A stretch of DNA of 23,632 nt from Deltaproteobacteria bacterium (GTDB taxonomy: Bacteria; Desulfobacterota; Syntrophia; Syntrophales; UBA2210). A program made the position numbers and the translations under genes. How positions within the stretch are numbered: position 1 is the first letter of the stretch; every line of letters begins with the position of its first letter. The stretch lies in NCBI GenBank assembly GCA_016934695.1, contig JAFGSH010000063.1, positions 1-23,632 on the forward strand, written 5' to 3'. Below the pieces are notes generated by a model. That model saw only the letters and a list, made by a program, of their open reading frames with translations. It ran no database searches and was not told the origin of the DNA. Of this stretch, positions 2-17,705 are shown piece after piece.

Positions 2-562
2 TTCGCCGACCACGGCTGCAAGGTCGTCCACAATCCCGAGAGCAACATGAAGCTGGCCTCCGGGATCGCCCCCGTGACGGGGATGCTGGAGCACGGGATC
101 GTCGTCGGGCTGGGGACCGACGGATGCGCCAGCAACAACAACCTCGACATGCTCGACGAGATGGCCACGGCCGCGCGCCTCGGAAAGATCGAGCGGCTCG
201 ACCCGACGGCGCTCCCCGCGAAGACGGTGACCCGGATGGCCACGCGTGACGGAGCGCGGGTGCTGGGGATGGAGGACGTCGGGTCGCTGGAGGAGGGGAT
301 GCGGGCGGATATCATCATCATCGATCTGAACAAGCCCCACCTCACGCCGATCTACGACGAATACTCCCACATCGTCTACGCCGTGGGGGGGTCGGATGTC
401 AGGACGACGATCATAGAAGGCAGGATCGTCATGGAGGACCGCCGGCTCCTGACCATCGACGAGGGGGAGGCGATGCGGCGGGTCCGGAAGATCGCCCGAA
501 GGATCGAAGAGAGCCTGAAATCACAGAAGGAATCTCGTCCCGGCCGCAAGGAAGATCACTGA
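2..562 (+). CDS. mtaD: 5-methylthioadenosine/S-adenosylhomocysteine deaminase-type amidohydrolase, 3' part
   Basis: The open frame enters from the left edge, so the start is missing; 186 residues are visible up to the TGA at 560-562. Near the start is the motif HNPESNMKLASGIAPV, followed by GLGTDGCASNN. Both are hallmarks of the MtaD/SsnA branch of the metal-dependent amidohydrolases, and the Asp of GTDG is the conserved metal/catalytic aspartate. The C-terminal part (MRADIIIIDL and following) is the usual return to the composite beta domain. Known family members deaminate methylthioadenosine, S-adenosylhomocysteine or adenosine to the inosine derivatives in the cytoplasm, for purine and methionine salvage. 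The metal-binding HxH motif lies upstream of the window, so substrate cannot be judged further. The stop codon overlaps the 3' end of the convergent prepilin gene by 7 bases. Confidence 0.88.
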   Translation, partial: FADHGCKVVHNPESNMKLASGIAPVTGMLEHGIVVGLGTDGCASNNNLDMLDEMATAARLGKIERLDPTALPAKTVTRMATRDGARVLGMEDVGSLEEGMRADIIIIDLNKPHLTPIYDEYSHIVYAVGGSDVRTTIIEGRIVMEDRRLLTIDEGEAMRRVRKIARRIEESLKSQKESRPGRKEDH

Positions 563-1728
563 TCGCAGTCTATGTGGATGTCGTCCACGTAGTGGTTGCC
601 GTTGCCGGACCCGGTCCTTCTCAGCTCGATCTTCACGTTGTTCGTCCCGTCATACCCGGTGAAGTACCCCGTGTCGCAGTTCCACCCGTCGGATGACCGC
701 GTATCGCTGTCCGCCCTGAAGGTCTCCAGGAGGTCCCCGTTCGCGTACACCGTGAACCGTCCGCCGTCCCCGCTGTTGTCGGCATCGAGGTGAAACTGGA
801 CCCGCACCGGCCGGTCGATATACAGCCAGGCATAATCGTTGACGTTGTCGAATCTCCAGTTGTTCGGCCCCGAGGTCCCCGACCGGCTCGAACTGGTATT
901 GACGGCCACGGAATGCAGGGATGCGCCGTTCAGCTCCCGCGTGGAGGAGACGTTCCCCGCCGCCACGGTGTCGGGATCGACCGTGTCGCAGTTGTACTCC
1001 CAGAACTGGGGCGCGGGGAGGGTGGTGGTCGTGGTCGTCGTCGTGGTGGTCGTGGTTGTCGTGGTCGTCGTGGTTGTCGTCGTGGTGGTCGTCCCGGTCG
1101 TGGTGGTGGTCGTCCCGGTCGTGGTGGTGGTCGTCCCGGTCGTGGTCGTCGTGCTTGTCGCGGCGGCAGCCAGAGGACCCAGGGGGTTCCCGGCGTTGCG
1201 CGGGTTCACATACGCGGTAAAGGAGAGGGGCGGCACGTCCCGGACGGCGTGTTCAAGGGCAAGCTCTATCCGTATCATCGACAGTTCCCGCGCGTCATCG
1301 GCGGTCGTCCACGCCGACCCGTCTCCCTTGTAATAGGTCAGGACAAAGCCGTCCACGCCGTCGACCAGAATGTCCCCGCTCGGCCAGTCGGTCGATCCCA
1401 CGGAGATTCTGACCGCGTTTCCGGACAGACCGATCCCCCGGCTCCCCGAGGGCTCCGCCCCCGGCGGTATCGTAAACCCTATGGAAGAGGAGGTCATGGC
1501 CGCAGGGACTATGTCCTTGATCTGGACCATCTCCCGGCGCATCCGCTCCAGGGCCAGCTGGGCCTTCTGGCCGAGGAGCGTCGTCTCCTTCGCGAGGATG
1601 TAGCCGTCTATCCCCCTCATGATGCCGATCCCCGCGGCGGTGGCCAGTATCCCCGTCAGCACCAGCACCGCGATGATCTCGATCAGCGTAAATCCTCTTT
1701 CTCCCCGCACGTCTTCCTCCCGCACCAT
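556..1728 (-). CDS. prepilin-type protein with poly-threonine linker and C-terminal beta-rich (possible adhesin) domain
   Basis: This 390-residue protein has a class III (type IV pilin-like) signal: short basic leader, cleavage after Gly12, Phe13 at +1, Glu17 at +5, then a hydrophobic helix (GFTLIEIIAVLVLTGIL). Residues ~40-185 form the pseudopilin-like region. Residues 191-236 are 42 Thr, 3 Gly and 1 Ser, including a run of 24 Thr. The C-terminal domain (~237-390) starts LPAPQFW, is rich in Asp, Asn, Gly and aromatic residues, has three Cys (two in NCDT motifs) and ends HYVDDIHIDC. That pattern resembles jelly-roll or carbohydrate-binding domains, but no family is recognised with certainty. 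ATG at 1728 was chosen; a GTG one codon upstream (1731) is possible. It is the last gene of the minor-pilin operon, a place where MSHA-like loci carry large or adhesive components. A tip adhesin is inferred. No terminator is seen before the convergent mtaD. Confidence 0.85.
   Translation of the reverse strand: MVREEDVRGERGFTLIEIIAVLVLTGILATAAGIGIMRGIDGYILAKETTLLGQKAQLALERMRREMVQIKDIVPAAMTSSSIGFTIPPGAEPSGSRGIGLSGNAVRISVGSTDWPSGDILVDGVDGFVLTYYKGDGSAWTTADDARELSMIRIELALEHAVRDVPPLSFTAYVNPRNAGNPLGPLAAAATSTTTTTGTTTTTTGTTTTTTGTTTTTTTTTTTTTTTTTTTTTTTTLPAPQFWEYNCDTVDPDTVAAGNVSSTRELNGASLHSVAVNTSSSRSGTSGPNNWRFDNVNDYAWLYIDRPVRVQFHLDADNSGDGGRFTVYANGDLLETFRADSDTRSSDGWNCDTGYFTGYDGTNNVKIELRRTGSGNGNHYVDDIHIDCDQ
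1021..1158 (-). repeat. threonine-codon repeat tract encoding a Thr-rich linker
   Basis: These 46 consecutive codons read on the minus strand encode 42 Thr, 3 Gly and 1 Ser. The part nearest the 5' end of the gene contains 21-base units, each six Thr codons plus one Gly codon, three times over (about 1093-1155). The remainder is 24 uninterrupted Thr codons. ACC, ACG and ACA are mixed, so the DNA is not a pure trinucleotide microsatellite, which suggests that selection acts on the amino acid sequence. The tract could still change length by slippage or recombination. Confidence 0.9.
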
Positions 1729-1737
1729 CACGCCCCG

Positions 1738-2169
1738 CTATTCGGTAAAGAGCGTGACCAGCGTCTGGCCGCCCTTTTTCAGCGTCACCTTCTGCACGGC
1801 GCCGTCGGCGCCCGCCTCGGTGTAATCACCGGAGGGAGCGGGATCAGACTGAAAGGCCGTGGCCGCCGCCTGCACGTCGTCGATGCCCGACCCGTACAGG
1901 GCGTTGATCTCCTCCGCCGTGTCCCTGCTCCCGATAAAGGCCGCCAGATCAAGGGTCCCGGCGCTCAACTCCTCCCGGTAATCGGCCAGCATCCGCTCCA
2001 TCACCCGGGACAGTTCGAACTCATCCCTCATCCAGGCGACGGTCCTCCCGCCCTGCGTCACCTTCGTCCCCATGAACGAGACCGCCATGGCCCCCACGAT
2101 CGCGACCAGGACGAGGGTCACGATAAACTCGAGCAAGGTAAAACCCTTCTGGTCAAGGCGTCGCATCAT
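1738..2169 (-). CDS. minor prepilin (GspI/GspJ- or MshO/MshD-like)
   Basis: This 143-residue protein has a nine-residue basic leader (MMRRLDQKG), cleavage predicted after Gly9, then FTLLEFIVTLVLVAIVGAM with Glu at +5. This is a typical pseudopilin N-terminal helix. The rest is a short, polar pseudopilin body without a recognisable named family. The frame stays open 24 codons further upstream, but ATG 2169 has a GGGAGA ribosome-binding sequence at proper spacing and leaves a normal leader, so I chose it. It starts 22 bases after the stop of the PilX-like gene and ends 9 bases before the next prepilin start, so the genes are one operon. It is expected in the inner membrane before assembly, and in the priming or tip complex of the pilus afterwards. 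Confidence 0.82.
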   Translation of the reverse strand: MMRRLDQKGFTLLEFIVTLVLVAIVGAMAVSFMGTKVTQGGRTVAWMRDEFELSRVMERMLADYREELSAGTLDLAAFIGSRDTAEEINALYGSGIDDVQAAATAFQSDPAPSGDYTEAGADGAVQKVTLKKGGQTLVTLFTE

Positions 2170-2191
2170 CCGTTTCTCCCGCCCGGGCGGT

Positions 2192-3328
2192 CTAATCGCC
2201 CGCAAAGTACTGTTCGACGGTCCTGCCCTCGGGATCGGCATACTGGAGGTCCTCGTCGTAGTGGATCCGGGTATTGTTCCCCGCCGTGATCGACTCCCCG
2301 ATCAGCGATCCGTAGACAACGCCGTTGCCTCCGACGGTGATATCCGCCGTCGGCGCACAGATCGCGGCGCGGATGCTGGAATTGTTTCCCAGCATGATGC
2401 TGTTGCATCCCGTGACCCCATAGATGACGAGGCTCCCGGGGGGCAGGCCGGGGTTGGCCGTGAAATTATTCCAGAGGCTTATGCTCCCCCCGGCATAGAT
2501 CGTCAGCGATCCGCCGGGATTGATGTTCACCGTGCCGTTATTCCAGGCGAACGTGAAGCTGCTCACGTACAGCGTCACGTCACCGGTGATATTGATCGTG
2601 GAGTTATCCGAGATGTTGACGAGGTAGGCATAGTACTCGCCGGCGTCGAGATCGATCGTCTGGTTGGGAAGCAGCATGAAGAGTTCCGGCGTCTTGTTCG
2701 TCCAAGACGACGCTCCGTCGGGGACCTCCTTCGGCTCCATATCCTTCCCCGCCGACGTCTCCTGCTCCCCCCGGATGTCTGTGTTGATCCCCACGGTGAT
2801 CGTGTCGCCGTTGGTCCCCACGTCGCCGTTCCTGCCGTCCGTCGGCCGGCCGGAAGAACTGTAACTGTCGACGAGGGCGTTGTTGCCGACGGAGACCCCC
2901 TCACCCCCGAAGAGGCCGAAATCGAAGGTGCTCCTCAGCCGATAGGCGATGGTCACCCGCGATTCGAGATCCGTCCCCTCGCCGACGACGCCCGTCGATG
3001 AAAAACGCTTCCACGAAAGTTTCTCTACCCGGAAAAAGGTACCGCCGCCGCTGAACTTGAAGGTATGCCCTCCGGTTGGTATATTATCCACCCGCGGCAG
3101 GACATACCGTCCTCCCGCCTCGGCGAGATAATACGCCCGCATCGCCCCGCTCGCCGATATCTGCCCCATCTGCGCGGTGAAGAGGGTGGGGAGGAGGGCG
3201 GCGGTCAGCACGGAGAGGATGATCATGGTGACAATCAGGACCATGAGGACGCTCCCCCCCTGACCGCGGATGCGGAAACGGGAACTTCCCCTGCCACCCG
3301 TCTCTCTCAGCGTGGATCGCTCCCCCAT
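2192..3328 (-). CDS. PilX/MshP-like minor pilin with bactofilin-like C-terminal region
   Basis: This 378-residue protein opens with a basic stretch and a hydrophobic helix (about residues 24-50) containing GQGGSVLMVLIVTMIILS. It is followed by SGAMRAYYLAEAG, the recurrent motif just after the helix in PilX/MshP/GspK-type proteins. As in GspK, the +5 glutamate is absent. From about residue 230 the protein becomes a repetitive beta region rich in Gly, Asn and Ile (for example NNGTVNINPGGSLTIYAGG and GNNTRIHYDE), which looks like a right-handed beta-helix of the bactofilin/DUF7305 kind. ATG 3328 is preferred over GTG 3337 because a strong GGAAGGTGA ribosome-binding site lies 5-8 bases before the ATG. 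It sits between the GspH-like and the small prepilin genes. By analogy with GspK/PilX it should cap or prime the pilus tip; that role is inferred. Confidence 0.82.
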   Translation of the reverse strand: MGERSTLRETGGRGSSRFRIRGQGGSVLMVLIVTMIILSVLTAALLPTLFTAQMGQISASGAMRAYYLAEAGGRYVLPRVDNIPTGGHTFKFSGGGTFFRVEKLSWKRFSSTGVVGEGTDLESRVTIAYRLRSTFDFGLFGGEGVSVGNNALVDSYSSSGRPTDGRNGDVGTNGDTITVGINTDIRGEQETSAGKDMEPKEVPDGASSWTNKTPELFMLLPNQTIDLDAGEYYAYLVNISDNSTINITGDVTLYVSSFTFAWNNGTVNINPGGSLTIYAGGSISLWNNFTANPGLPPGSLVIYGVTGCNSIMLGNNSSIRAAICAPTADITVGGNGVVYGSLIGESITAGNNTRIHYDEDLQYADPEGRTVEQYFAGD

Positions 3329-3356
3329 ACCAGTCACCTTCCCCCGCCGCGTGCCG

Positions 3357-3875
3357 TCAGTCGATATAGCCCGTATTCTTCGTGATCACGATATGGCCGA
3401 CATCCGTCGCGATGGTGACGGAGGTCGAACCGGGGTTCCCCCACTCGTCGAACTCCACCGTCGCCGCCGTGCCGATCGCAAGCGGCCAGACCCCCACGGA
3501 GCCGTCGCTGAACACCACCACGTGCCTGGAGTCGTCCTCCACCTGGAACGGCACCGGGGTCTCGTCGTCCCCGTCGGTGAAGAGCCAGTAGGTGCTGTAC
3601 GTCCTTCCGTCGTGGCTGCGGGTGCCGGCAAAGTTGATCCCCCACGCCGTATTGGAATGGATCGCCCGCGCCTGGGCGTAGCGGAGGTGGGCCTTCACCA
3701 TGGCGAGCTGCGATCTTATGGCGTAGGTGTCCGTCGATGTAAGCCGCACCGCGGCAATACCGACCACGATGCCGATGACGATGACGACCGCCATCACCTC
3801 CACCACCGTGAAACCGCGGCGATCTCCCCGTTCCGGCCTCCCGGCCCCCGTCAACATGGAAGAGACACCGCCCAT
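3357..3875 (-). CDS. GspH/FimT-like pseudopilin (MshC-like position)
   Basis: This 172-residue protein has a 21-residue leader ending DRRG, then FTVVEVMAVVIVIGIVVGI with Glu26 at +5 of the mature protein. After the helix, the pattern of Ala/Arg-rich early helix (KAHLRYAQARAI) and beta-rich body (WGINFAG, VVVFSDGSVGVWPL, TVEFDEWGNP) fits the GspH/FimT pseudopilins. The end lies 28 bases before the PilX-like gene. ATG 3875 is preceded by a purine-rich GAGGGGGAGGAA; a GTG at 3914 or an ATG at 3857 are alternatives with poorer sites. It is the first gene of the minor-pilin operon, about 56 bases downstream of the predicted start of transcription from the promoter at 3938-3966. Confidence 0.83.
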   Translation of the reverse strand: MGGVSSMLTGAGRPERGDRRGFTVVEVMAVVIVIGIVVGIAAVRLTSTDTYAIRSQLAMVKAHLRYAQARAIHSNTAWGINFAGTRSHDGRTYSTYWLFTDGDDETPVPFQVEDDSRHVVVFSDGSVGVWPLAIGTAATVEFDEWGNPGSTSVTIATDVGHIVITKNTGYID

Positions 3876-3937
3876 TTCCTCCCCCTCGCGCGGCGCCCTT
3901 CTCGATACCCGCACGGCGCCGTTCCGCTCTATCCTTT

Positions 3938-3966
3938 CTTATATGGGTACCATGCTGTAATGTCAA
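3938..3966 (-). promoter_or_regulatory. near-consensus sigma70 promoter for the minor-pilin operon
   Basis: Read on the minus strand, a perfect TTGACA (3966-3961) is followed after exactly 17 bases by TATAAG (3943-3938), 11 of 12 consensus bases. Transcription would start near 3931, upstream of the GspH-like ATG at 3875. This is among the strongest promoter matches in the window. Confidence 0.72.
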
Positions 3967-3985
3967 TGTTTTTCCCAGAATCTGC

Positions 3986-4013
3986 TTGCAAATATCGCTC
4001 CTTCCTGTATATC
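3986..4013 (+). promoter_or_regulatory. putative promoter of the glycosyltransferase operon
   Basis: TTGCAA (3986-3991) and TATATC (4008-4013) are separated by 16 bases, about 45 bases before the GTG start of the GT2 gene. The match is moderate (5/6 and 4/6). It lies back to back with the minor-pilin promoter, so the two operons would fire divergently from one 183-base region. Confidence 0.45.
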
Positions 4014-4058
4014 AATAGCTACCGGGGGAGTTTTCACCGAACCGGAGGAGGCGAGGGT

Positions 4059-4970
4059 GTGGCCGTGGCGGAGATAACCATCATCATCCCCGCGTATCGC
4101 GAGGAGAAAGGGATCTTCGGCGTCGTCGAGGGGACGCGCCGGGTCATGGACGCGACGGGGCACGGCTACGAGATTCTGGTGATCGATGACGGATCGGATG
4201 ACGGGACGGCCGCCGAGGCGCGCCGGGCCGGCGCCCGCGTCCTGTCCCACCCGTACAACATCGGCAACGGCGCCGCCGTCAAGACGGGGATCCGGAGCGC
4301 CCGGGGGGACATCCTGGTCACGCTCGACGGGGACGGCCAGCACGCCCCCGGGGATATTCTCCGCCTGCTGGAGGTGATGGACACTTACGACATGGCGGTC
4401 GGGGCGCGCGGCGGCAGTTCGAAGCGCCCCCTCCTCCGCAGGGCAGCGAACAGGCTCTACAACTGGTTTGCCACGTACATGTGCAGGCGAAGGATCGAAG
4501 ACCTGACATCGGGCTTCAGGGCGATCCGGAGGGAGATCGCCCGCCGCTTTGTTCCGCTCCTCCCCAACACCTTTTCATACCCGACGACCATCACGATGGC
4601 GGTGGCCCGCTCCGGATACAGTCTCGTCTACGTCCCGATAACAACAGGCCCCCGCGTGGGAGCCAGCAAGATCCGGCCGATCCGGGACGGCATCCGCTTC
4701 TTCTTGATCATCCTCAAGATCGCGACCCTCTTCTCACCCCTGCGGGTCTTCCTCCCCGTCAGCGCCGTCATGTTCCTCACGGGGGTGGGATACGGTCTCT
4801 TCAAGATACTCTGCATGGGGGAACGGTACGGACCGACCTCCGCCATGTTGATGACAGTGTCGGTAGTGATCTTCATGGTGGGGCTCGTCTCGGAGCAGGT
4901 GGCGCAGCTCCGGTTCGACGGGACCGAGTCTTTCAGAGGGAATGATCGGGGCCGCGATGCGCCGGAATGA
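4059..4970 (+). CDS. family 2 glycosyltransferase, polyprenyl-phosphate sugar synthase (DPM1/GtrB-like) with C-terminal membrane segments
   Basis: This 303-residue protein has a GT-A fold at the N-terminus: ITIIIPAYREEKGI, then ILVIDDGSDDGT, then the metal/nucleotide-binding DGDGQH with D90, D92 and Q94. Residues ~115-210 contain the family's LTSGFRAIRRE and KIRPIRDGIRFFLIIL blocks. Two hydrophobic segments close the protein (~226-252 and ~258-280). This arrangement is known from synthases that move a hexose from a nucleotide sugar to a polyprenyl or dolichyl phosphate on the cytoplasmic face. The exact sugar cannot be read. The start is GTG 4059, with GGAGGAGG seven bases upstream; GTG 4065 is an alternative. 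The end overlaps the next gene by ATGA (4967-4970). The gene opens an operon lodged between two pilin clusters, so supply of lipid-linked sugar for pilin glycosylation is a reasonable inference. Confidence 0.85.
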   Translation: MAVAEITIIIPAYREEKGIFGVVEGTRRVMDATGHGYEILVIDDGSDDGTAAEARRAGARVLSHPYNIGNGAAVKTGIRSARGDILVTLDGDGQHAPGDILRLLEVMDTYDMAVGARGGSSKRPLLRRAANRLYNWFATYMCRRRIEDLTSGFRAIRREIARRFVPLLPNTFSYPTTITMAVARSGYSLVYVPITTGPRVGASKIRPIRDGIRFFLIILKIATLFSPLRVFLPVSAVMFLTGVGYGLFKILCMGERYGPTSAMLMTVSVVIFMVGLVSEQVAQLRFDGTESFRGNDRGRDAPE

Positions 4971-6094
4971 ACATATCGAACGAGGGGTCTGCCGGTAATC
5001 GTATGCCGAGCGGGAGCGACACCATACGGGTATGTTATATCCTCTCCTATCGGTCCCCGGAGTACGTGAGGACCGCGAGTCTCCTCCAGGCCCTGCGCAG
5101 GATACACGGCATCGAGGTTCTGACGGCCGTCAACGAGGCACGGGGGATACGGCGCTACGCGCAGACCCTCCGGAGGCTTCTGGCCCTGAAGGCAGGAAAG
5201 GACCCGGACTGCTACATCCTGGGGTTTCGCGGGTACGAACTGTTCTGGATCGTCCGGATGCTGACGCGGGGGAAGCCTCTGATCCTCGATCACCTCATGT
5301 CCCCCTACGACAGCCTGGTGCATGAGAGAAAACGGGTCAGAGAAGGGGGGGTGATCGCCGGGATCATCCGCCGCTATGAACGATCGATCCTCCGGCACGC
5401 GGATATCGTTCTCACGGACACCCCCCTGCACCGCTCGTACCTGTCCGGCCTTTTCGGGGTGGACGCCGGGAAGATTCGCGCGGTACCGGTGGGAACGGAC
5501 GAAGAGCTGTTCAGACCCGCGTCCGCACCGGTACCCGGGGATGGGGACGATCTCTTTCGCGTCCTCTTCTACGGCTCCTTTCTTCCGCTCCACGGAATCG
5601 ATGTCATCCTGGAGGCCGCGCGGATACTGCGGGACACCCCGATACGGTTTACCGTTATCGGAGGGAGGGGGAGACCCCTGAGGGCCTTTCACGATACGGT
5701 CGAGCGGTTGGGACTGGACCATGTCGCCCACCGAAGATGGGTCCCCTACCGGCGCCTTCCCGGTCTGATACGGGAGGCGGACGTCTGCCTGGGAGGTCCC
5801 TTCGGCGGCACCGGCCAGGCGCGCCGCGTCGTCACCGGGAAGGCGCTGCAGGCGCTGGCCATGGGAAAGGCTGTGATCGTGGGCGCAGCCGCGGATGCCT
5901 GCGGCTTTCAGGACAGGGAGAACTGCCTTCTGGTGCCGCAGGGAGACGGCGAGGAACTCGCGCGGGCGATCCGCTGGTGTTTCGAGAACCGCAACCGGCT
6001 GCCGGCGATCGGGGAAGGGGGGCTCCGGCTCTACCGGGAGCGTTTTTCAATCGGCTGCATACAGGAGAACCTCCGGGGGATGCTGGTTCCATGA
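4967..6094 (+). CDS. family 4 glycosyltransferase (GT-B fold)
   Basis: The 375-residue protein has two Rossmann-type halves. The N-terminal half (~20-175) contains VCYILSYRSPEYVRTASLLQ and DIVLTDTPLHRSYL. The C-terminal half begins near RVLFYGSFLPLHGIDVILEA (~200), with FTVIGGRGRP, a VPYRRLPGLIREADVCLGG block and GKALQALAMGKAVIVG, followed by ENCLLVPQGDGEELARAI. These are the standard landmarks of GT4 nucleotide-sugar transferases. The usual second glutamate of the E-x7-E motif appears to be lysine (TGK), a variant seen in parts of the family. No signal peptide or clear membrane helix is present, so it should act in the cytoplasm or at the membrane surface. Start and stop overlap both neighbours by ATGA, indicating translational coupling. 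It may build or extend the glycan carried by the lipid product of the first gene; acceptor and sugar are unknown. Confidence 0.85.
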   Translation: MNISNEGSAGNRMPSGSDTIRVCYILSYRSPEYVRTASLLQALRRIHGIEVLTAVNEARGIRRYAQTLRRLLALKAGKDPDCYILGFRGYELFWIVRMLTRGKPLILDHLMSPYDSLVHERKRVREGGVIAGIIRRYERSILRHADIVLTDTPLHRSYLSGLFGVDAGKIRAVPVGTDEELFRPASAPVPGDGDDLFRVLFYGSFLPLHGIDVILEAARILRDTPIRFTVIGGRGRPLRAFHDTVERLGLDHVAHRRWVPYRRLPGLIREADVCLGGPFGGTGQARRVVTGKALQALAMGKAVIVGAAADACGFQDRENCLLVPQGDGEELARAIRWCFENRNRLPAIGEGGLRLYRERFSIGCIQENLRGMLVP

Positions 6095-7062
6095 GCATGC
6101 GCAGCGAGTGTGGTATGCGGAGTGACCGTATGGAAGGGAGAAGACGGATATGGCTGATTATCGGAACGGGGGTGGCTGTTGCCGCCATGGCCGCCGCTCT
6201 CGCCTCTCAGCGTCATCTCATCGGATACCTCCAGCACGTGCGTCCGGGGACGGCCGCCGCCCTGATCGCAATCGTGCTCCTCTTTCATGTTTCCAACGGC
6301 ATCCTGCTGCGGGCGGTCGCGTCCAAGTTCGGCGTCGTCCTGACCGCCAGGGAATGGCTCGGGCTCCCCTTTGTAACGGCGATGGGGAATTACCTCACCC
6401 CCTTTGCCGGCGGGATGCTGGCCCGGGCATCGTACCTGAAGCTCCGCCACTCCTTCCCGTACGCGAAATTTGTGTCGGTCATCGCGGCGACCTACCTGAT
6501 ATACAGCTGGGTTGCCGGGGCTGCGGGGATCGCGGCCGTGGTCCTGACCGCGGAGAAGCCGGGGCTCTCGGGGAAGCTGATATTCTTCTTTGCGGCGATG
6601 CTCCTGATCCTTTCCTCCTGCGCCCTGATTCCCGCTTTCAGGTTCCCCGGAGAAAACTCCCTGATACGATTTCTGAACAGCGCCTTTGAGGGATGGATTC
6701 TGATACGAAGAGATCTGCCCCTCCTGATCAGGTTCGTCCTGTATACCCTGGCCACCATCCTCCTGGGAGGCATCGCGTTCTGGCTGGCCTTCGGGGCGCT
6801 CTCCGAAAGTCCCGTGCCGTTCGGCGTGCCCTTTATCATCAGCATATTCTCCAGTCTCTCCATCTTCATCCGGGTGACCCCCGGAAATCTCGGCGTCTCG
6901 GAGGCCGTCACCACGCTCGCCTCCGAACTCTTGGGGATGGGGGCCGGGATCGGTTTCATGGCCTCGCTCCTCGTCAGGGCGGTCTCTCTGCTCCCCATCT
7001 TTACCCTGGGGCCGCTCTTCAGCGTTCTGCTCGCCCGGGAACTGAGGGGGGACAAGCCGTGA
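6091..7062 (+). CDS. flippase-like integral membrane protein (LPG_synthase_TM / UPF0104 family)
   Basis: This 323-residue, very hydrophobic protein has roughly seven or eight predicted membrane spans after a basic N-terminus (MEGRRRIWLIIGTG). The pattern GLPFVTAMGNYLTPFAGGM, followed by LRHSFPYAKFVSV, and the later IRVTPGNLGVSEAVTTLASE are the characteristic blocks of the membrane domain shared by MprF, AglD and related proteins (PF03706). The aminoacyl-transferase part of MprF is missing. Stand-alone members commonly sit with lipid-linked glycan genes and are often proposed to move lipid-linked sugars across the membrane. That role is not proven for this family. The first ATG (6091) overlaps the GT4 stop; in-frame ATGs at 6097, 6115 and 6130 would also give a sensible N-terminus. 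The stop overlaps the next gene's GTG. Confidence 0.8.
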   Translation: MSMRSECGMRSDRMEGRRRIWLIIGTGVAVAAMAAALASQRHLIGYLQHVRPGTAAALIAIVLLFHVSNGILLRAVASKFGVVLTAREWLGLPFVTAMGNYLTPFAGGMLARASYLKLRHSFPYAKFVSVIAATYLIYSWVAGAAGIAAVVLTAEKPGLSGKLIFFFAAMLLILSSCALIPAFRFPGENSLIRFLNSAFEGWILIRRDLPLLIRFVLYTLATILLGGIAFWLAFGALSESPVPFGVPFIISIFSSLSIFIRVTPGNLGVSEAVTTLASELLGMGAGIGFMASLLVRAVSLLPIFTLGPLFSVLLARELRGDKP

Positions 7063-9161
7063 TAACGCGAGACGACGGATTCGACCTGCATACCGAGCGG
7101 CTCTTTCCCGAATGGAGGAGGTACGCATTCGCAGGGATCATTCTCTTCATCTTTCTGATCGTCATCTATGCCAACAGTTTTGACGGCGCGTGGCAGTTCG
7201 ACGACACGCCGAATATCGTCGAAAACAGGAATGTCTTCCTGAAGACCCTCGACTGGCCTGACCTCAAGAAGACCTTTCACGCGCCGGAGGGGAAGATCTC
7301 GCGCCCCCTCTCGTACCTCAGTTTCGCCCTGAATTACTATGTCGGCGGGCTGGATATCGTCGGGTATCACATCGTCAACTTCATCATCCACTACCTGGCA
7401 TCCGTCTTCCTCTTCCTCTTTCTGTACAACACGCTGAAGCTCCCGACGGTCCGCGAGCGATACGGCCCTTCCGCCTACGGGATCGCGCTCCTGGCCACGG
7501 TCTTCTGGGCCACCAGCCCGGTGCAGACAACCGCGGTGACGTACATCGTCCAGCGGATGGCGAGCATGGCCGGACTCTTCTACATCACGGCCCTGTATCT
7601 CTACCTCAAGGGGCGGACCGCCGGCCGGCCGTGGGGACGGGGGCTGTTCTGGGGTCTGTGCGCCCTTTCAGCCCTGCTCTCCTTCGCCTCCAAGGAGAAC
7701 GCCGCCATGCTCCCGGTCAGCATATGGCTCTACGACCTGATCCTGATCCAGGGGGTAACACGCGAGAGCATCAAAAAGAATGCCAAGGTGCTTATTCCGG
7801 TGCTCCTCACCGTCTTGGCAATCGGACTTCTCTATACCGATCTTTCTAACATCTTCGACGGGTACCGGAACAGGCCGTTCACCCTGACCGAGCGGCTCCT
7901 CACCGAACCCAGGGTTATCATCTGGTACATCACGCTCCTCCTGTATCCCGTCAGCCCGCGGCTGACCCTGATACACGATATCGAGCCGTCGCGCTCCCTC
8001 CTGACGCCCTGGGACACCCTGCCCGCCATCGCCCTGATCGGTGCCTGCATCACCCTCGCCGTATATGGCGCCCGGAAGAGACCCCTTATCGCCTTTTGTG
8101 TCCTCTTCTTCCTTTTGAATCACGTCATCGAGAGCTCATTTCTTCCCCTTGAACTGATCTACGAACATAGAAACTACATCCCGTCCATGTGCCTCTTCGT
8201 CCCGGTGGCGGTCTTCATCATCCGGGTCCTAGGTTATTTTTCATACCGGAAGGTGCTCCAGTTGACGGTCGCCGCCGCCGTCGCGGTTCTTCTCTGGGCG
8301 CAGGGACACACCGTCTTCATCCGCAACGCGATCTTTGAATCCCCCCTCCTCCTCTGGTCCGACAACGTGGAGAAGGCCCCTGCGCTGAGCCGCCCTTACA
8401 ACAACCTGGGTGCCGCCTACTGGGATCTGGGCAGGCATGAAGAAGCCTACGAGGCATATTCCAAGGCCCTGGAGATCGACCGGCAGACCAACCTCCTGAA
8501 CCGGGGGGTCAACCTGTACAACCTCGGCGTGTACCATCTCCATGCGAAGGGGGAACCCGACAGGGCGCTGGAGCTCTTCCGGTCTGCCCTGGAGGCCTAC
8601 CCCGGATACTGGCCCGCTTACCACGACACGGCCATATGTCACATCCTGAAGGGAAATCTGTTCGAGGCGGGCAAGACGCTCCTGGTGGCCCTCTCCGCGT
8701 GGCCGGACAACGCCTATTTCCGTCACGCCATGGGCTTTGTCCTTCTGAAGACCGGGAAGTACAACCAGGCAATCAGGGAGGCGCGCCGGGCCCTGTCGCT
8801 CGATCCGAACCTCGACAGCGCCCTGTGCATCTTGGGGGAGGCCTTCCGCAGAAAGGGCAGCTATCGGCCGGCAACGGTCTGCTGGGAACGGTACATCGAG
8901 AAACACCCGAACGATCCGGAGGGAAACCTTGCACTGATCGAGCTGTATGACAAAAGCGGGGACCGGGACGCCCTCTCACGAACCATAGGCAGACTCCTGT
9001 GCCTGAAAGGATCACAGGGATGGCGCGCGTTTGTCGGCGGGGTCCTGAGAGACACGCGGCCCCTGGCATACACACCGGAGCCGGAAGAGATCGTCTCCAT
9101 CATCACGGGCAGCCTGCACGATCAGGAACAGCGGCCCGGCGACGCCCCGCGGCCGCGATAA
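7059..9161 (+). CDS. TMTC-like GT-C membrane glycosyltransferase with C-terminal TPR domain
   Basis: A 700-residue protein. After one N-terminal span (~22-38) comes ANSFDGAWQFDDTPNIVENR, with the acidic pair D48-D49 in the first external loop. The loop then has SRPLSYLSFALNYYVGG and GYHIVNFIIHYL. Later blocks are SPVQTTAVTYIVQRMASMAG, ASKENAAMLPVSIWLYDLIL and ELIYEHRNYIPSMCLFVPVA. These follow, in order, the conserved blocks of the TMTC family, whose eukaryotic members O-mannosylate Ser/Thr of secreted proteins from dolichyl-phosphate mannose. About ten spans occupy residues 22-430. Residues ~445-647 are about five TPR units (such as NNLGAAYWDLGRHEEAYEAY). GTG 7059 overlaps the previous stop (GTGA) and follows GAGGGGGG. 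The acceptor is unknown; the threonine-rich pilins on both sides are obvious candidates. It is the last gene of its operon. Confidence 0.8.
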   Translation: MITRDDGFDLHTERLFPEWRRYAFAGIILFIFLIVIYANSFDGAWQFDDTPNIVENRNVFLKTLDWPDLKKTFHAPEGKISRPLSYLSFALNYYVGGLDIVGYHIVNFIIHYLASVFLFLFLYNTLKLPTVRERYGPSAYGIALLATVFWATSPVQTTAVTYIVQRMASMAGLFYITALYLYLKGRTAGRPWGRGLFWGLCALSALLSFASKENAAMLPVSIWLYDLILIQGVTRESIKKNAKVLIPVLLTVLAIGLLYTDLSNIFDGYRNRPFTLTERLLTEPRVIIWYITLLLYPVSPRLTLIHDIEPSRSLLTPWDTLPAIALIGACITLAVYGARKRPLIAFCVLFFLLNHVIESSFLPLELIYEHRNYIPSMCLFVPVAVFIIRVLGYFSYRKVLQLTVAAAVAVLLWAQGHTVFIRNAIFESPLLLWSDNVEKAPALSRPYNNLGAAYWDLGRHEEAYEAYSKALEIDRQTNLLNRGVNLYNLGVYHLHAKGEPDRALELFRSALEAYPGYWPAYHDTAICHILKGNLFEAGKTLLVALSAWPDNAYFRHAMGFVLLKTGKYNQAIREARRALSLDPNLDSALCILGEAFRRKGSYRPATVCWERYIEKHPNDPEGNLALIELYDKSGDRDALSRTIGRLLCLKGSQGWRAFVGGVLRDTRPLAYTPEPEEIVSIITGSLHDQEQRPGDAPRPR

Positions 9162-9165
9162 CCGG

Positions 9166-9205
9166 AAACAAAAACCTGGGTGAAACGCGCCGCCTCACCC
9201 AGGTT
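9166..9205 (-). terminator. intrinsic terminator downstream of the major-type pilin gene
   Basis: A perfect 11-base inverted repeat (9173-9183 and 9195-9205, arm AACCTGGGTGA) flanks an 11-base loop. Read on the minus strand, the stem is followed directly by TTTTTGTTT. It lies 25 bases after the pilin stop at 9230, as expected for a rho-independent terminator. On the plus strand there is no T run after the stem, so it would terminate the glycosyltransferase operon only weakly if at all. Confidence 0.85.
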
Positions 9206-9229
9206 CAGTAACAGCCGGATATCATCGTC

Positions 9230-9613
9230 TCACGGCATCTTCCACGTCTTGGTAACGGCCGTCGCGCCGGAGAAATCGGAACCAGCCTTGCCTCCCACCG
9301 TAATCAGGATGCCCGTCGAATCGGCCGCGAAGGTGTAGCTGAATTCGTCGCTCGCGGGCTTGTTCGCATTCGCCTTGGCGGCGATCTCGGCGGTCGTCGC
9401 GGTGCCGCCGGTCGACAGCATCAACTTGCCGTAGGCGAGACTGACCGTCGACAATCCCTCCGCAAGCGCCCCCTTCAAGGCCCGGTTCTTGGCGTCAGCC
9501 GTCAGGTCCATATACTTCGGGACGGCCACCGCCGCCAGGATGCCCAGAATAATCAGAACCGCGATAATCTCGATCAGCGTAAAACCCCTCTGGCTCCTCA
9601 CCATATCTCTCAT
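9230..9613 (-). CDS. type IV pilin (MshA-like major pilin candidate), short form
   Basis: This 127-residue prepilin has a ten-residue leader (MRDMVRSQRG), then FTLIEIIAVLIILGILAAVAVPKYMDL with Glu at +5, the textbook type IVa/MSHA pilin helix. The body (ALAEGLSTVSLAYGKLMLSTGG ... FSYTFAADSTGILITVGG) has no Cys pair. It is strongly similar through its body to the next pilin upstream, so the two arose by duplication. ATG 9613 has an AAAGGAGG site eight bases upstream. The frame is open to an ATG at 9784 with its own AAGGAGG, but that would give an implausible 67-residue leader. An own promoter (9671-9699), the strong ribosome-binding site and the terminator just downstream are what a highly expressed major pilin would show; expression itself is inferred. 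Confidence 0.87.
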   Translation of the reverse strand: MRDMVRSQRGFTLIEIIAVLIILGILAAVAVPKYMDLTADAKNRALKGALAEGLSTVSLAYGKLMLSTGGTATTAEIAAKANANKPASDEFSYTFAADSTGILITVGGKAGSDFSGATAVTKTWKMP

Positions 9614-9670
9614 CCGACAATCCTCCTTTTGGGGATATTTTCCCTTCGTTACCGCCCCTCTCATGAGGGT

Positions 9671-9699
9671 CGTATATACCATCCTTGGCTTCTTTTCAA
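9671..9699 (-). promoter_or_regulatory. putative promoter of the short major-type pilin
   Basis: On the minus strand, TTGAAA (9699-9694) and TATACG (9676-9671) are 17 bases apart, 58 bases upstream of the pilin ATG. The overlapping TATATA (9678-9673) gives a 15-base spacer. The match is moderate and no sigma54-type GG-N10-GC element was seen in this 214-base gap. Confidence 0.4.
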
Positions 9700-9827
9700 T
9701 ACTTTCTCTCTTCCATCTTTCCGCATCCGCGCCCTCTGCTCCCCGCCTCCGCATGCATCCCTCCTCTCTCCAGCAGCCCGGCATTTACATTCCTCCTTCG
9801 CACGTACGGGAGACCCCGGAAAGGCGA

Positions 9828-10370
9828 TCACGGCCCTCCCCCGCCGCCATGTCCACCGCCACCCCCATGTCCACCGCCACCCCCATGTCCACCGCCGCCC
9901 CACGGCGGCCCGTGCGGCGGAACGGTCGTGGTCGTTGTCGTGATGGTGGTTGTTGTCGTCGTCGCGGTCGTCGACGGCGTCGATTCCGAATCCGAACTTA
10001 TCCACGCCCCGGTGGCCGTCATTCCGGAGAAATCAGAACCGGCCTTGCCTCCCACCGTGATCAGGACGCCCGTCGAGGTGGCCGCGAAGGTGTAGCTGAA
10101 TTCGTCGCTCGCGGGTCTGTTCACATTCGCCTTGGCGGCGATCTCGCCCGTCGTCGCGGTGCCGCCGGTCGACAGTATCAACCGCGCGTACGCGACGTTG
10201 ACGGTCGATACTCCCTCCGCAAGGGCCCCTTCCAGAACTCGATTCCGTGCATCCCCCGTCATATCCAGATACTTCGGGACGGCCACCGCCGCCAGGACCC
10301 CCAGGATAATCAGCACCGCGATGATCTCGATCAGCGTCAGACCCTTCTGGTTCCTTACCGTGCGATTCAC
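9828..10370 (-). CDS. type IV pilin paralogue with Thr-rich linker and Gly/His-rich tail
   Basis: A 180-residue prepilin. The GTG start at 10370 follows GGAGGGAGGAG and gives a ten-residue leader (VNRTVRNQKG) that lines up exactly with that of the neighbouring pilin. In-frame ATGs at 10436 and 10397 exist but give unusually long leaders. The mature part begins LTLIEIIAVLIILGVLAAVAVP, with Leu instead of Phe at +1 and Glu at +5. Residues 11-~115 are closely similar to the short pilin. Then it departs: Ser/Thr-rich linker 128-149 (mostly Thr), VPPHGPPW, and a tail 158-180 of Gly with His every six residues. Such an extension is unusual for a pilin and would sit on the fibre surface. Whether it is a major or a special-purpose subunit is not clear. 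It lies 101 bases after the platform gene and 214 before the short pilin. Confidence 0.85.
   Translation of the reverse strand: MNRTVRNQKGLTLIEIIAVLIILGVLAAVAVPKYLDMTGDARNRVLEGALAEGVSTVNVAYARLILSTGGTATTGEIAAKANVNRPASDEFSYTFAATSTGVLITVGGKAGSDFSGMTATGAWISSDSESTPSTTATTTTTTITTTTTTVPPHGPPWGGGGHGGGGGHGGGGGHGGGGGP
9849..9902 (-). repeat. 18-base tandem repeat, three copies
   Basis: The unit ATGTCCACCGCCACCCCC (plus-strand sense) occurs at 9849-9866 and 9867-9884, and with two changes at 9885-9902. On the coding minus strand each unit encodes five Gly and one His, building the pilin's Gly/His tail. Tandem identity makes copy-number change between strains likely. Confidence 0.9.
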
Positions 10371-10471: not shown

Positions 10472-11689
10472 CTACTTGACCATCTTCGTCAGGTCCCACA
10501 TGGGGAGGAAGATCGCCAGGGCGAAGAACCCCACCACCGCCGCGAGGGAAACGATCAGGATCGGCCCGATCGCCTCCGACAGTCCCTTCACGGCATACTC
10601 CACCTCATCGTCATAGTGGACCGCGATCACGCGGAGCATCTCTTCGAGTTCCCCGGATTCCTCCCCCACCGCCACCATATCTACCACCATGGGGGTGAAG
10701 TATTTCGACGACCTCAGGGGCTCGGATATCCCTCTCCCCTCCTGAATCTTGTCCTTCAGCCCGGAGAATTCCCGGCTTATGGCGGCGTTACCGATGGTTC
10801 CGGAGAGGATGTCAAGGGCGCTCAGGACGGTGACACCGCTCGCCTGCAGGATCGAAAAGATACTCGCAAACCGGGACATGGCCGCCTTGACGAAGAGAGG
10901 ACCGATGAGGGGTATCTGCAGGATGAGCCGGTCCCGAACATATCTCCCCTGCTCGGTCTTGAACCAGTGTCTCAGACCGAATACGGCAAGGATCAGCCCG
11001 CCCAGGGGCAGGTACCAGTAATCGGAGATCAGACGGTAGAGATACAGACAGATGAGGGTGGGGATGGGGAGGTCCAGGCCTGCCTTGGTGAATATCGCCA
11101 CGAACCGGGGGATCACGAAGGTGAGGAGCACGAAAAAGGCCACGACGAGGGCCACCACCACCATGATGGGATACTGCAGGGCCGACTTGATATCCGACCG
11201 GACCTTGTGCTCGTGCTCCAGTATGTAGACCAGGCGATCGAGGACGTCGGGGAGGGTGCCGCTGGATTCTCCCGCCTCGATCATGCTGACATAGAGCGGG
11301 GGGAATATGCCGGGGTGTTTCCCGAAGGCCTCATGAAGGGCGAACCCCTCCCGTATCTCCGCTGTCATGGAACCCAAGGCTTTCCTGAGTTTCAGGTTCC
11401 GGGTCTGGTGCTCCAGTATCTCGAGGACCTTGAGGATCGAGAGCCCGGCGATCAGCATGGTCTTGAACTGCTTGGTGAAGAGGATCAGTTCCCTCATCGT
11501 GACCGACACCAGCCTCGCCTGTATGCCGGCCAGAAGGGTGCGGGACCCGAGGCTCTCTTCCGACACGTCGGAAGGGATCAGCCCCTGTTCGTTCAGGAGG
11601 TGCTGGGCCGCCTCGACCGATTGCGCCTCGATGGAACCGGAGACCTCGGCGCCATACTGGTTGACGGCCCGGTAAAAAAAGTCCGGCAT
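10472..11689 (-). CDS. mshG: inner-membrane platform protein, GspF/PilC family (MshG-like)
   Basis: This 405-residue protein has the two repeated T2SSF domains. Repeat one spans ~65-190 (LILFTKQFKTMLIAGLSILK, then AGESSGTLPDVLDRL). Repeat two spans ~265-395 (FASIFSILQASGVTVLSALD, then VGEESGELEEMLRVIA). Hydrophobic helices lie at ~166-190, ~215-235 and ~375-398. The length and the GxSSG/GEESG motifs are typical of the platform protein that couples the cytoplasmic ATPase to pilin extraction. It starts 17 bases after the stop of the ATPase gene, with GGATGGGG before ATG 11689. The N-terminus (FFYRAVNQYGAEVSGSIEA) is complete. The symbol follows the MSHA gene order (E then G). Confidence 0.93.
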   Translation of the reverse strand: MPDFFYRAVNQYGAEVSGSIEAQSVEAAQHLLNEQGLIPSDVSEESLGSRTLLAGIQARLVSVTMRELILFTKQFKTMLIAGLSILKVLEILEHQTRNLKLRKALGSMTAEIREGFALHEAFGKHPGIFPPLYVSMIEAGESSGTLPDVLDRLVYILEHEHKVRSDIKSALQYPIMVVVALVVAFFVLLTFVIPRFVAIFTKAGLDLPIPTLICLYLYRLISDYWYLPLGGLILAVFGLRHWFKTEQGRYVRDRLILQIPLIGPLFVKAAMSRFASIFSILQASGVTVLSALDILSGTIGNAAISREFSGLKDKIQEGRGISEPLRSSKYFTPMVVDMVAVGEESGELEEMLRVIAVHYDDEVEYAVKGLSEAIGPILIVSLAAVVGFFALAIFLPMWDLTKMVK

Positions 11690-11706
11690 CCCCCCATCCT
11701 TTCTTC

Positions 11707-13416
11707 CTACATTACCATGACCGTCGACGCCGCCTCTTCGAGCGTCGTTATGCCCCTGACGACCCTGTCAGCCGCGTCGTCTTTGAGGGTCCTCAGTTTC
11801 CCCGCCTCTTTCGCCTCCCGCGTGATCTCCTGCGCGGTCTTCCCCTTCAGGATCATCTCCTGGATCTCCTCGTCGATCTGCAGGACCTCGAAGATGCCGG
11901 TGCGCCCCTTATACCCGCTGTTCATGCACTGGGTGCATCCCGCCCCGCGCTGGAAATCGGCGCCCTCAACCCGGTCAAGTCCCCACGCCCTGAGCGCATC
12001 CGGTGAGGGAGTATAGGGCTCTTTGCAATACGGGCAGACGGTCCTCATGAGGCGCTGGGCGAATGAAACCAGGAGGACCGACGATATCAGGAACGGTTCC
12101 ACCCCCATCTCCGTGAGCCGTGTAATGGTTCCCGCCGCATCATTCGTGTGGAGCGTACTCAGAACCCTGTGACCGGTAAGGGCGGCCTGGACGGCGAGTC
12201 CCGCCGTCTCGCCGTCCCGGATTTCCCCGACCAGCATGACATCGGGATCCTGACGGAGGATCGCCCTGAGCCCGCTGGCAAAGGTCATCCCCGCCTTGCG
12301 GTTGAGCTGGACCTGGCGTATGTGATCGACCCGGTATTCGACGGGGTCTTCCAGGGTGATGATATTGATGTCGGGTTTGTTGAGTTCTTTCAGGATGGCG
12401 TAGAGGCTCGTGCTCTTCCCGCTGCCGGTCGGCCCGGCGCTCAGTATCATCCCGTAGGGTTTGACGATGACAGCTTCTATCTTCTTGCGGTCCGCGACCG
12501 ACATCCCCAGCTGTTCGAGGGAGTACACGCCGGCGCTCATGTCGAGGAGGCGCAGGACGACATTCTCGCCGTAGATGGTGGGGAGCGACGATGTCCTGAC
12601 GTTGATCTCCCTCTTGTCCATCCTCACCGTAAACCGCCCGTCCTGCGGTATCCTCGATACGGATATATCCATGTTTGAAAGGATCTTCAGCCGCGACACG
12701 ATGGGGAGCATGAGGGCCTTGGGGGGCGACGGAACCTCGCGGAGCTTCCCGTCGACACGGAATCTCAGCTGGGTCTTCTCCGCCTCCGGACTGATATGGA
12801 TGTCACTTGCCCCGTCACGGACGGCCTGCGCGATGATGGAGTTGACGATCCTGACGACGGGTGCCTCCTCGGCCATCCCTTGGAGCGAGCTGACGTGGAT
12901 GTCCGTATCGGCCGGGGCAGGTTCCTCCTGGACGGCGACCGCCACATCCTCCATCCCGTCCAGGACCTGCTGCAACCCCCCTGTCTGGGTTCCGTACGTA
13001 AGGGTGATGAGCTGGTTGATCTCCTTTTCCGAGCAGACGACGGGCATGACCTCCATGTTGGTGAGGACCTCGGCGGAGTCGATGGCGTTGATATCCATAG
13101 GGTCGGCCATCGCCACTGTGAGGAGGTGCATCTTTTTTCTCAGGGGGACGATCTGGTACCTGTGGGCCATATTGAAGGGGATCAGATCGGCCAGACTCTG
13201 GTCTATCGGATATTCCTTGGGGTCATATTTTTCTATCTTCAACTGCCTGCTGATCTGGTCGATGATCTGGCCTTCCCTGACCATCCCCTCCCGGATCAGA
13301 TACTGCCCCAGCTTCAGGCCCGTCCCCTTCTGCCCGGCCAGGGCCTGCCGCAACTGCTCCTCGGTCAACAGGCCGGAATCTATCAGCATTTCCCCCAGTT
13401 TCTTGCGTATTCTCAC
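11707..13416 (-). CDS. mshE: pilus extension ATPase, GspE/PilB family with MshEN-type N-terminus (MshE-like)
   Basis: A 569-residue protein. Residues 6-29 and 35-58 are two 24-residue motifs of the form (R/K)LG-x2-hh-x2-G-hh-x4-h-x3-h-x2-Q, five residues apart, exactly the plan of the MshEN c-di-GMP-binding domain. The leading Arg is Lys in both (K6, K35), and both final Gln are present (Q29, Q58). The catalytic part has the Walker A GPTGSGKST (K334), the Asp box IITLEDPVEYR, the Walker B DVMLVGEIRDGETA, the His box LSTLHTNDA, and a zinc motif of CPYC plus CTQC. Together these define a hexameric assembly ATPase working in the cytoplasm against the platform protein encoded just downstream. The start is GTG 13416 with AAGGAAGGA upstream. 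It follows the ExeA-like ATPase gene by 28 bases. Confidence 0.93.
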   Translation of the reverse strand: MRIRKKLGEMLIDSGLLTEEQLRQALAGQKGTGLKLGQYLIREGMVREGQIIDQISRQLKIEKYDPKEYPIDQSLADLIPFNMAHRYQIVPLRKKMHLLTVAMADPMDINAIDSAEVLTNMEVMPVVCSEKEINQLITLTYGTQTGGLQQVLDGMEDVAVAVQEEPAPADTDIHVSSLQGMAEEAPVVRIVNSIIAQAVRDGASDIHISPEAEKTQLRFRVDGKLREVPSPPKALMLPIVSRLKILSNMDISVSRIPQDGRFTVRMDKREINVRTSSLPTIYGENVVLRLLDMSAGVYSLEQLGMSVADRKKIEAVIVKPYGMILSAGPTGSGKSTSLYAILKELNKPDINIITLEDPVEYRVDHIRQVQLNRKAGMTFASGLRAILRQDPDVMLVGEIRDGETAGLAVQAALTGHRVLSTLHTNDAAGTITRLTEMGVEPFLISSVLLVSFAQRLMRTVCPYCKEPYTPSPDALRAWGLDRVEGADFQRGAGCTQCMNSGYKGRTGIFEVLQIDEEIQEMILKGKTAQEITREAKEAGKLRTLKDDAADRVVRGITTLEEAASTVMVM

Positions 13417-13444
13417 CGCGCGATCCTTCCTTCCTGTACCGGCG

Positions 13445-15013: not shown

Positions 15014-15045
15014 AGCGTGTCACTTCCGTCCCTTGCACAAACGTC

Positions 15046-16593: not shown

Positions 16594-16617
16594 TGCACCA
16601 TATCCTCCCCGATACGG

Positions 16618-17106: not shown

Positions 17107-17153
17107 GCTTCACGCTTGCGTAATCAATCAGTCCCCGGCGCACCGCTTCCTCT

Positions 17154-17696: not shown

Positions 17697-17705
17697 CCGT
17701 ACACC

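Follow-up and report, generated by a model that had tools for sequence, protein, structure and literature searches.

A predicted TMTC-like GT-C enzyme with tetratricopeptide repeats is encoded beside pilin genes in Desulfobacterota and may belong to a dedicated pilin glycosylation system

The window, by which we mean the whole stretch of 23,632 nucleotides analyzed here (Deltaproteobacteria bacterium, assembly GCA_016934695.1, contig JAFGSH010000063.1, positions 1 to 23,632), carries a minus-strand cluster of pilus genes, with a plus-strand cassette of four genes lying between its minor-pilin and major-pilin genes. The last cassette gene codes for a predicted GT-C-fold enzyme with C-terminal tetratricopeptide repeats (TPRs), similar to the animal TMTC proteins, and this enzyme and its association with pilins are our subject. 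The genes are listed below with their Pfam matches and E values.

556..1731, minus strand: PilW-like minor prepilin, 391 amino acids (aa), with a Thr linker and a C-terminal domain; a possible extra acceptor
1738..2241, minus strand: PilV/GspI-like minor prepilin, start uncertain (PF07963, 2.6e-7)
2192..3337, minus strand: PilX-like protein of the minor pilin cluster, with DUF7305 (PF23981, 3.7e-22) and an ice-binding-like adhesive domain (PF20597, 1.6e-7)
3357..3914, minus strand: GspH-like minor prepilin (PF07963, 1e-5; PF12019, 0.0012, below cut-off)
about 4059..4970, plus strand: GT2 glycosyltransferase, AglJ/polyprenyl-phosphate-sugar-synthase-like, start uncertain (PF00535 Glycos_transf_2, 1.7e-26)
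4967..6094, plus strand: GT4 glycosyltransferase, the variable middle of the cassette (PF13692 Glyco_trans_1_4, 7.3e-14)
6091..7062, plus strand: LPG_synthase_TM membrane protein, candidate flippase or lipid-sugar handling protein (PF03706, 1e-19)
7059..9161, plus strand: predicted GT-C-fold enzyme with a C-terminal TPR domain, TMTC-like, 700 aa, GTG start (TPR matches)
9230..9613, minus strand: PilA/MshA-like pilin, the proposed main acceptor (PF07963, 2.6e-8; adjacency conserved)
9828..10370, minus strand: second PilA-like pilin, 180 aa, with a Thr-rich linker and a Gly/His-rich tail (PF07963, 5.3e-7)
10472..19574, minus strand: pilus machinery, comprising PilC, an MshE-like ATPase, an AAA protein (ExeA/MshM-like), secretin, and T2SB-like, PilO-like (assigned by position only) and PilM-like proteins

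Each cassette gene overlaps the next by 4 bp, and coordinates and Pfam matches agree in confirming an earlier note on this DNA that had described a coupled four-gene operon between two pilin clusters. A gap of 68 bp separates the last gene from the pilin gene at 9230..9613, which is convergent with it and whose product, like that of 9828..10370, is GspG/PilA-like. The first gene, which the same note called DPM-like (after dolichyl-phosphate-mannose synthase), is indeed a GT2, with hydrophobic C-terminal stretches as judged by eye, but the DPM label is loose, and the scores for AglJ (TIGR04182, 120.5 bits against a cut-off of 325), PpgS (94.9 against 370) and the other listed models are all below cut-off. 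The GT4 position is taken by other sugar genes in relatives. The locus is an MSHA-like type IV pilus cluster that, with reasonable rather than high confidence, carries its own glycosylation cassette.

In the 700-aa protein, the TPR matches are confined to the C-terminal part; the first 434 aa gave no Pfam match better than E 0.33 and no NCBIfam match at E 0.01, and a profile of the GT-C part had no PDB match at E 10. A full-length model from 28 close relatives was poor (predicted local distance difference test [pLDDT], 66.8), and we used instead a model of residues 1-447 from 97 sequences, which is a predicted GT-C fold (pLDDT 91) with about 11 long transmembrane (TM) helices, counted by eye. 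The protein has the hallmarks of the GT-C superfamily, with many TM helices in the predicted fold and an acidic pair (D48/D49) in the first outer loop, and the odd TM count would put the TPR side in the periplasm. D48, D49, R82, K212 and Y373 are identical in 97 of 97 aligned rows, a few rows being the same protein from two sources. This invariance argues against a role as a pilotin- or TfpY-like TPR protein that assists pilus assembly and whose GT-C part is no longer active, as does the overlap of the window gene with the LPG_synthase_TM gene of a sugar cassette. Such a role seems quite unlikely, although the TPRs resemble those of PilF/Tgl-type proteins (below cut-off), and pilin-accessory genes such as tfpY are described as encoded beside the pilin gene (PMC11841053).

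Formal membership of the TMTC family, which the earlier note had suggested, is not borne out: PF08409 (TMTC_DUF1736) is unmatched in the window protein, in any of 32 family members at E 0.1, and above its cut-off in any of 13 genomes, with the 14 control genomes of that genome scan likewise lacking a positive. Animal TMTC1-4 are described as having an 11-TM GT-C part that carries DD in its first outer loop and is followed by TPRs (PMC7801869), and the window enzyme is alike in its about 11 predicted TM helices, its DD, and its C-terminal TPRs; animal acceptors, however, are cadherins, and the TMTC motifs (M1 DD, M2 SHKSYRP, M3 RxD, M4 KE, M7 ERxxY) are kept in part. Among the 97 rows, DD is present in all, M2 keeps RP (R in 97, P in 96), M4 has K in 97 and E in 86, EHRNY occupies the M7 position, and the M3 aspartate was not seen. 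A distant paralogue (L235:2-1990; loci are numbered L and genomes G) scores 22.3 bits with PF08409 (cut-off 27) and 79.5 bits with the GT-C profile, which suggests a weak thread of kinship between the enzyme family and TMTC. Distant TMTC-like genes also occur in tandem arrays (L222-L224 in G054:C13, L196 in G084:C6, and L198), with 11 copies in about 40 kb in the G054 array and no prepilin in the fetched stretches of the arrays.

The association with pilins was examined at three levels. A first scan, with one genome per species, gave 254 relatives, the best 80 of which were kept as 79 loci; using a loose pilin pattern, a prepilin gene lies within 600 bp in 58 of the 79, and in 41 of the 47 whose flanks extend 1.5 kb or more on each side. 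The loose pattern yields a few false prepilins (e.g., L170 and L199), and a stricter one was used for later counts, in which flanks of at least 1 kb were required, and shorter-flank copies and repeated sequences were dropped. For the order-level sample we took 155 genomes from the order of L004 (Syntrophales), the window's likely order, and found the window-type enzyme at E 1e-90 in 54; the fetched regions hold 60 copies, 42 with 1 kb flanks, and 33 of these 42 have a prepilin gene no more than 600 bp away. In 21 of the 33 the closest pilin gene is convergent, at the 3′ side; in 11 it is directly upstream on the same strand, and in one it is otherwise placed. The chance rate is about 0.8% (148 prepilins in 12 enzyme-carrying genomes with a mean size of 5.8 Mb), estimated by hand on the assumption that prepilins are scattered.

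The class-level sample was an even draw of 147 genomes from the class of L009 (Desulfonema magnum, a cultured carrier of the enzyme), at least 90 of which have the GT-C domain at E 1e-10; 100 regions among the matches listed were used, plus L009, leaving out listed matches under about 305 bits. A prepilin lies within 600 bp in 23 of 31 copies scoring at least 450 bits and 7 of 13 at 400-450, compared with 4 of 25 at 350-400 and 3 of 40 at 300-350. Pairing becomes rarer toward lower bit scores, and the distant family members therefore serve as a control (23/31 at 450 bits or more versus 7/65 below 400; Fisher p 8e-10, a value that overstates the contrast, as discussed below). The GT-C+TPR enzyme is paired with pilins well beyond chance, and a gene beside that of a pilin, the mark of a dedicated pilin glycosyltransferase, is thus found in 33/42 and 23/31 copies. 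What stands of the proposed dedicated pilin O-glycosylation is this predicted GT-C enzyme paired with pilins, but not Thr linkers as a rule, mannose, or TMTC membership. The partner pilins are of two types, MSHA-like and PilA-like, and in a FastTree phylogeny of 184 copies the pilin type changes only 6 times (73 labelled), compared with at least 15 in 200 shuffles.

We also examined pilus loci that lack the enzyme. At order level, a close secretin is present in 81 of the 155 genomes, 40 with the enzyme and 41 without; 14 have the enzyme only and 60 neither (association p 9e-5, kinship ignored; the secretin cut of E 1e-130 was chosen after the results were seen, and fragments, as in G174 and G179, count as absent). 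Twenty enzyme-less pilus loci were fetched, and nine are readable past the pilin: four have a different TPR-bearing family in the enzyme's slot, one a distant relative of the window enzyme (L330:8193-10040; 76 bits, with PF13231 [PMT_2] at 22.6 bits, below cut-off), and four nothing. The other slot family appears from its sequence to be multi-spanning, with TPR matches in three of the four and the fourth cut; there are 10 copies in 9 of the 155 genomes, nine of them within 490 bp of a prepilin and the tenth at 2.4 kb. Its members (L327:8993-11173, L336:16387-18000, L337:6806-8944, L339:8161-10503, L351, and L354-L358) stand beside MSHA-type pilins and have an N-terminal DTDLWYHL motif; the N-terminal part was without a Pfam match in the four scanned. 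We found no support for GT-C homology of this family: hhalign aligned it with the window enzyme by TPRs only, and the 60 of 97 PDB matches that were listed all fall in the TPR part. Three genomes (G174, G175, and G176) encode members of both, and in all three the other family is found at PilA-type pilins (L351 in G174). The fetched stretches with the window-type genes of G175 and G176 (L287 and L288) contain no prepilin; the window-type gene of G174 (L304) has a minor-type prepilin 282 bp away.

Sugar genes often accompany the enzyme. In the order-level sample, 27 pilin-linked loci have 5 kb flanks; within 9 kb, 13 of them have a PF03706-type gene, 18 a GT2, 12 a GT4, and 8 a DegT. L001, L002, L004, L011, L021, and L031 have a PF03706-like gene no more than 220 bp from the GT-C gene (Pfam-checked only in L021 and L031), in a listing that pools loci of both scans, some counted twice. 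Close relatives have constant cassette ends, GT2 first and PF03706 and GT-C last, with a changing middle: a UDP-GlcNAc 2-epimerase in L001, GT4, methyltransferase, and GT4 in L002, and GT4 with an FkbM methyltransferase in L011. L016 has a 2-epimerase and GT2 in a different gene order, and L031 has an oxidoreductase/hexapeptide protein, an epimerase, a nucleotidyltransferase, DegT, and a methyltransferase. The variable middle fits a varied glycan.

Polysaccharide loci, too, commonly contain GT2, GT4, PF03706, and sugar-nucleotide genes, and the cassette could instead make an exopolysaccharide or other surface glycan and merely be located at the pilus locus. L287 and L288, with sugar genes and no prepilin in the fetched stretch, speak for this. 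However, it is the pilin and not the sugar genes that is the constant neighbor of the enzyme, the stretches around pilin-paired copies such as L028 and L056 contain no sugar genes of this kind, and no recognized polymerase or exporter is among the window's four genes between the pilin clusters; we consider the surface-glycan explanation unlikely.

The earlier note took the substrate to be Thr-rich linkers, one in a pilin of each cluster, and both linkers are real. The 391-aa prepilin (556..1731) has 42 T in 46 residues (positions 192-237), and the 180-aa pilin (9828..10370) has 14 T in 16, or 15 T in a wider run of 23; the tracts are written in mixed ACC/ACG/ACA codons and are therefore no pure codon slip. 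In L004 and L289, too, tracts are carried by PilW-type minor pilins with an extra C-terminal domain; the L004 linker is Thr/Ser-rich and that of L289 Thr/Pro/Glu-rich, so that sequences differ and Thr-richness is kept. L001 has a Thr run followed by a Gly/His tail. These instances favor a reading in which the cassette serves the Thr-rich linkers and yields mucin-like O-mannosylated pilins, but the survey of co-occurrence goes against it. With a threshold of at least 9 T (or 14 S+T) in 20 residues and a prepilin motif required in the same frame, only 4 of 92 prepilins in the order-level regions qualify, two with long tracts (L004 and L289) and two weak; the Thr run of L001/L323 was missed, its frame having no prepilin motif. 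Of four distinct prepilins with a length of 280 aa or more, two have a tract. Tract-less loci still show the pairing of enzyme and pilin, and pilins encoded next to the enzyme have no clear excess of Ser plus Thr (S+T); Thr tracts are thus rejected as the rule for the family-wide target. Nothing points to mannose as the sugar, the neighboring sugar genes vary between loci, and a mannose/DPM route has no support. We therefore think the mucin-like reading improbable. Because tracts are not a regular companion of the enzyme, we consider the major pilin the more likely usual acceptor, probably the adjacent PilA-type one by analogy with TfpO/TfpW; in the window's lineage the Thr tracts may be added acceptors.

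The Gly/His-rich tail following the Thr run of the second pilin (window 9828-9930) is matched by a GGHHGGHG tail in L001 (8426-8671, minus strand), where the counterpart of this pilin reads in two overlapping frames; such a tail could bind metal.

We propose, as the best reading and a fairly probable one on sequence and model, a dedicated pilin glycosylation system in which the enzyme acts on the adjacent pilin. The GT2 would charge polyprenyl phosphate with a sugar in the cytoplasm, the GT4, and other sugar genes in relatives, would determine the identity of the glycan, and the LPG_synthase_TM protein would help to move the lipid-sugar to the periplasmic side. There the GT-C enzyme, with its fold as predicted and its TPRs in the periplasm, would transfer the sugar to the pilin, probably held by the TPRs, and the Thr tracts in the window's organism may be extra acceptors.

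Several observations weigh against this proposal. At order level, nine of the 42 copies lack a prepilin gene in the surrounding 600 bp, and 41 of the 81 close-secretin genomes lack the enzyme, which makes it optional. The window-type gene of G174, 282 bp from a prepilin, shows that exclusion between the two slot families is not strict. Adjacency is clustered and inherited within clades (19 changes in the FastTree phylogeny, 161 labelled, versus at least 41 in 200 shuffles); the copies are thus not independent, hence the overstated Fisher p. Sugar genes beside copies without a pilin in 600 bp fit another acceptor too (five copies with 5 kb flanks; within 9 kb, PF03706-type in four, GT2 in five, GT4 in two, and DegT in four), although for three of these copies (L275, L297, and the second one of L306) a pilin is found 2.0-2.8 kb away. 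In 14 of the 27 pilin-linked loci there is no nearby PF03706-type gene, so that the donor must come from elsewhere. The S+T fraction of pilins next to the enzyme shows no clear rise over that of other pilins (type I, 0.201, n=59, versus 0.212, n=22; type II, 0.244, n=39, versus 0.215, n=19; no significance test, both scans pooled and some loci counted twice). Finally, a TfpO-style shared acceptor residue was sought, and by eye no C-terminal residue is common to the listed type I and II pilin ends; neither comparison pointed to an acceptor site.

Several known systems resemble parts of this arrangement. TfpW is described as the GT-C enzyme of Pseudomonas aeruginosa group IV pilins, modifying its pilin with D-arabinofuranose (D-Araf) (PMC11841053). 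Compared by description, not sequence, it is like the window enzyme in being a GT-C enzyme associated with its pilin, whereas TfpW adds D-Araf and the window enzyme has TPRs. We know of no TPR domain in TfpW. The dedicated pilin O-oligosaccharyltransferases (O-OTases) TfpO/PilO, TfpM, and PglS are also reported as often encoded close to their pilin substrate (PMC12645811), as is the window enzyme, but they have WaaL-like domains, and no O-antigen-ligase-related Pfam domain matches the window protein as a whole (E 0.01) or its first 434 aa (E 10). GT-C OTases are treated in PMC9239064. GtrB/GtrA/Gtr and ORF15/ORF14/ORF12 (GT136) combine a polyprenyl-phosphate-sugar synthase, a flippase, and a GT-C enzyme, and modify polysaccharide, according to PMC11127046; the window's GT2, candidate flippase, and predicted GT-C-fold protein are a similar set, with the differences that the candidate flippase is PF03706, not MATE/GtrA, and that the partner gene encodes a pilin. 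In "Ca. Electrothrix" cable bacteria, pilA is described beside TPR genes and sugar enzymes (PMC10580974), a likeness of gene layout by description; that article interprets the TPRs as serving protein-protein interaction, and words starting with "glycosylat" are absent from its main text. Among the literature matches listed, titles and abstract openings mention no bacterial TMTC-like or GT-C+TPR pilin enzyme, in a search with most subscription papers and preprints outside its scope. We judge that dedicated enzymes near their pilin and synthase-flippase-GT-C systems are already known, and that the GT-C+TPR pilin pairing appears to be new.

More tentatively, and with a little less than even confidence, we suggest that Desulfobacterota have an undescribed class of pilin-modifying, TMTC-like GT-C enzymes with periplasmic TPRs, whose genes occupy an exchangeable position next to that of the major pilin, with variable sugar cassettes often supplying them; at least one other TPR-bearing family, apparently of membrane proteins, could fill the slot, and decoration would vary by lineage as with Pseudomonas tfpO/tfpW. 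The enzyme's location next to the main pilus gene, shared by many sulfur- and syntrophy-related bacteria, suggests an undescribed sugar coating of their pili. If so, pilin glycosylation would extend to a large environmental group (syntrophs, sulfate reducers, and perhaps cable bacteria), by an enzyme type outside the O-OTase classes set out in a 2025 review (PMC12645811). It would be a bacterial counterpart of TMTC-like GT-C+TPR enzymes, giving a testable reason for the TPR domains, and could provide new enzymes for glycoengineering; by analogy with TfpO/TfpW, the modification could be a phage-evasion trait of pili.

Two further kinds of gene stand at related loci. A sigma-factor gene lies between the minor pilins and the enzyme or major pilin in L028 (9166-9726, Pfam-checked) and, with genes that look alike, in L011 (4066-4638), L056 (9162-9737), and L324 (7895-8473); the window has no room there. 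Between the major pilin and PilC, where the window has no such gene, L031 has a sigma-54 activator-type gene (13203-14525, Pfam-checked), and genes that look alike are similarly placed in L011, L016, L021, L028, L056, and L064.

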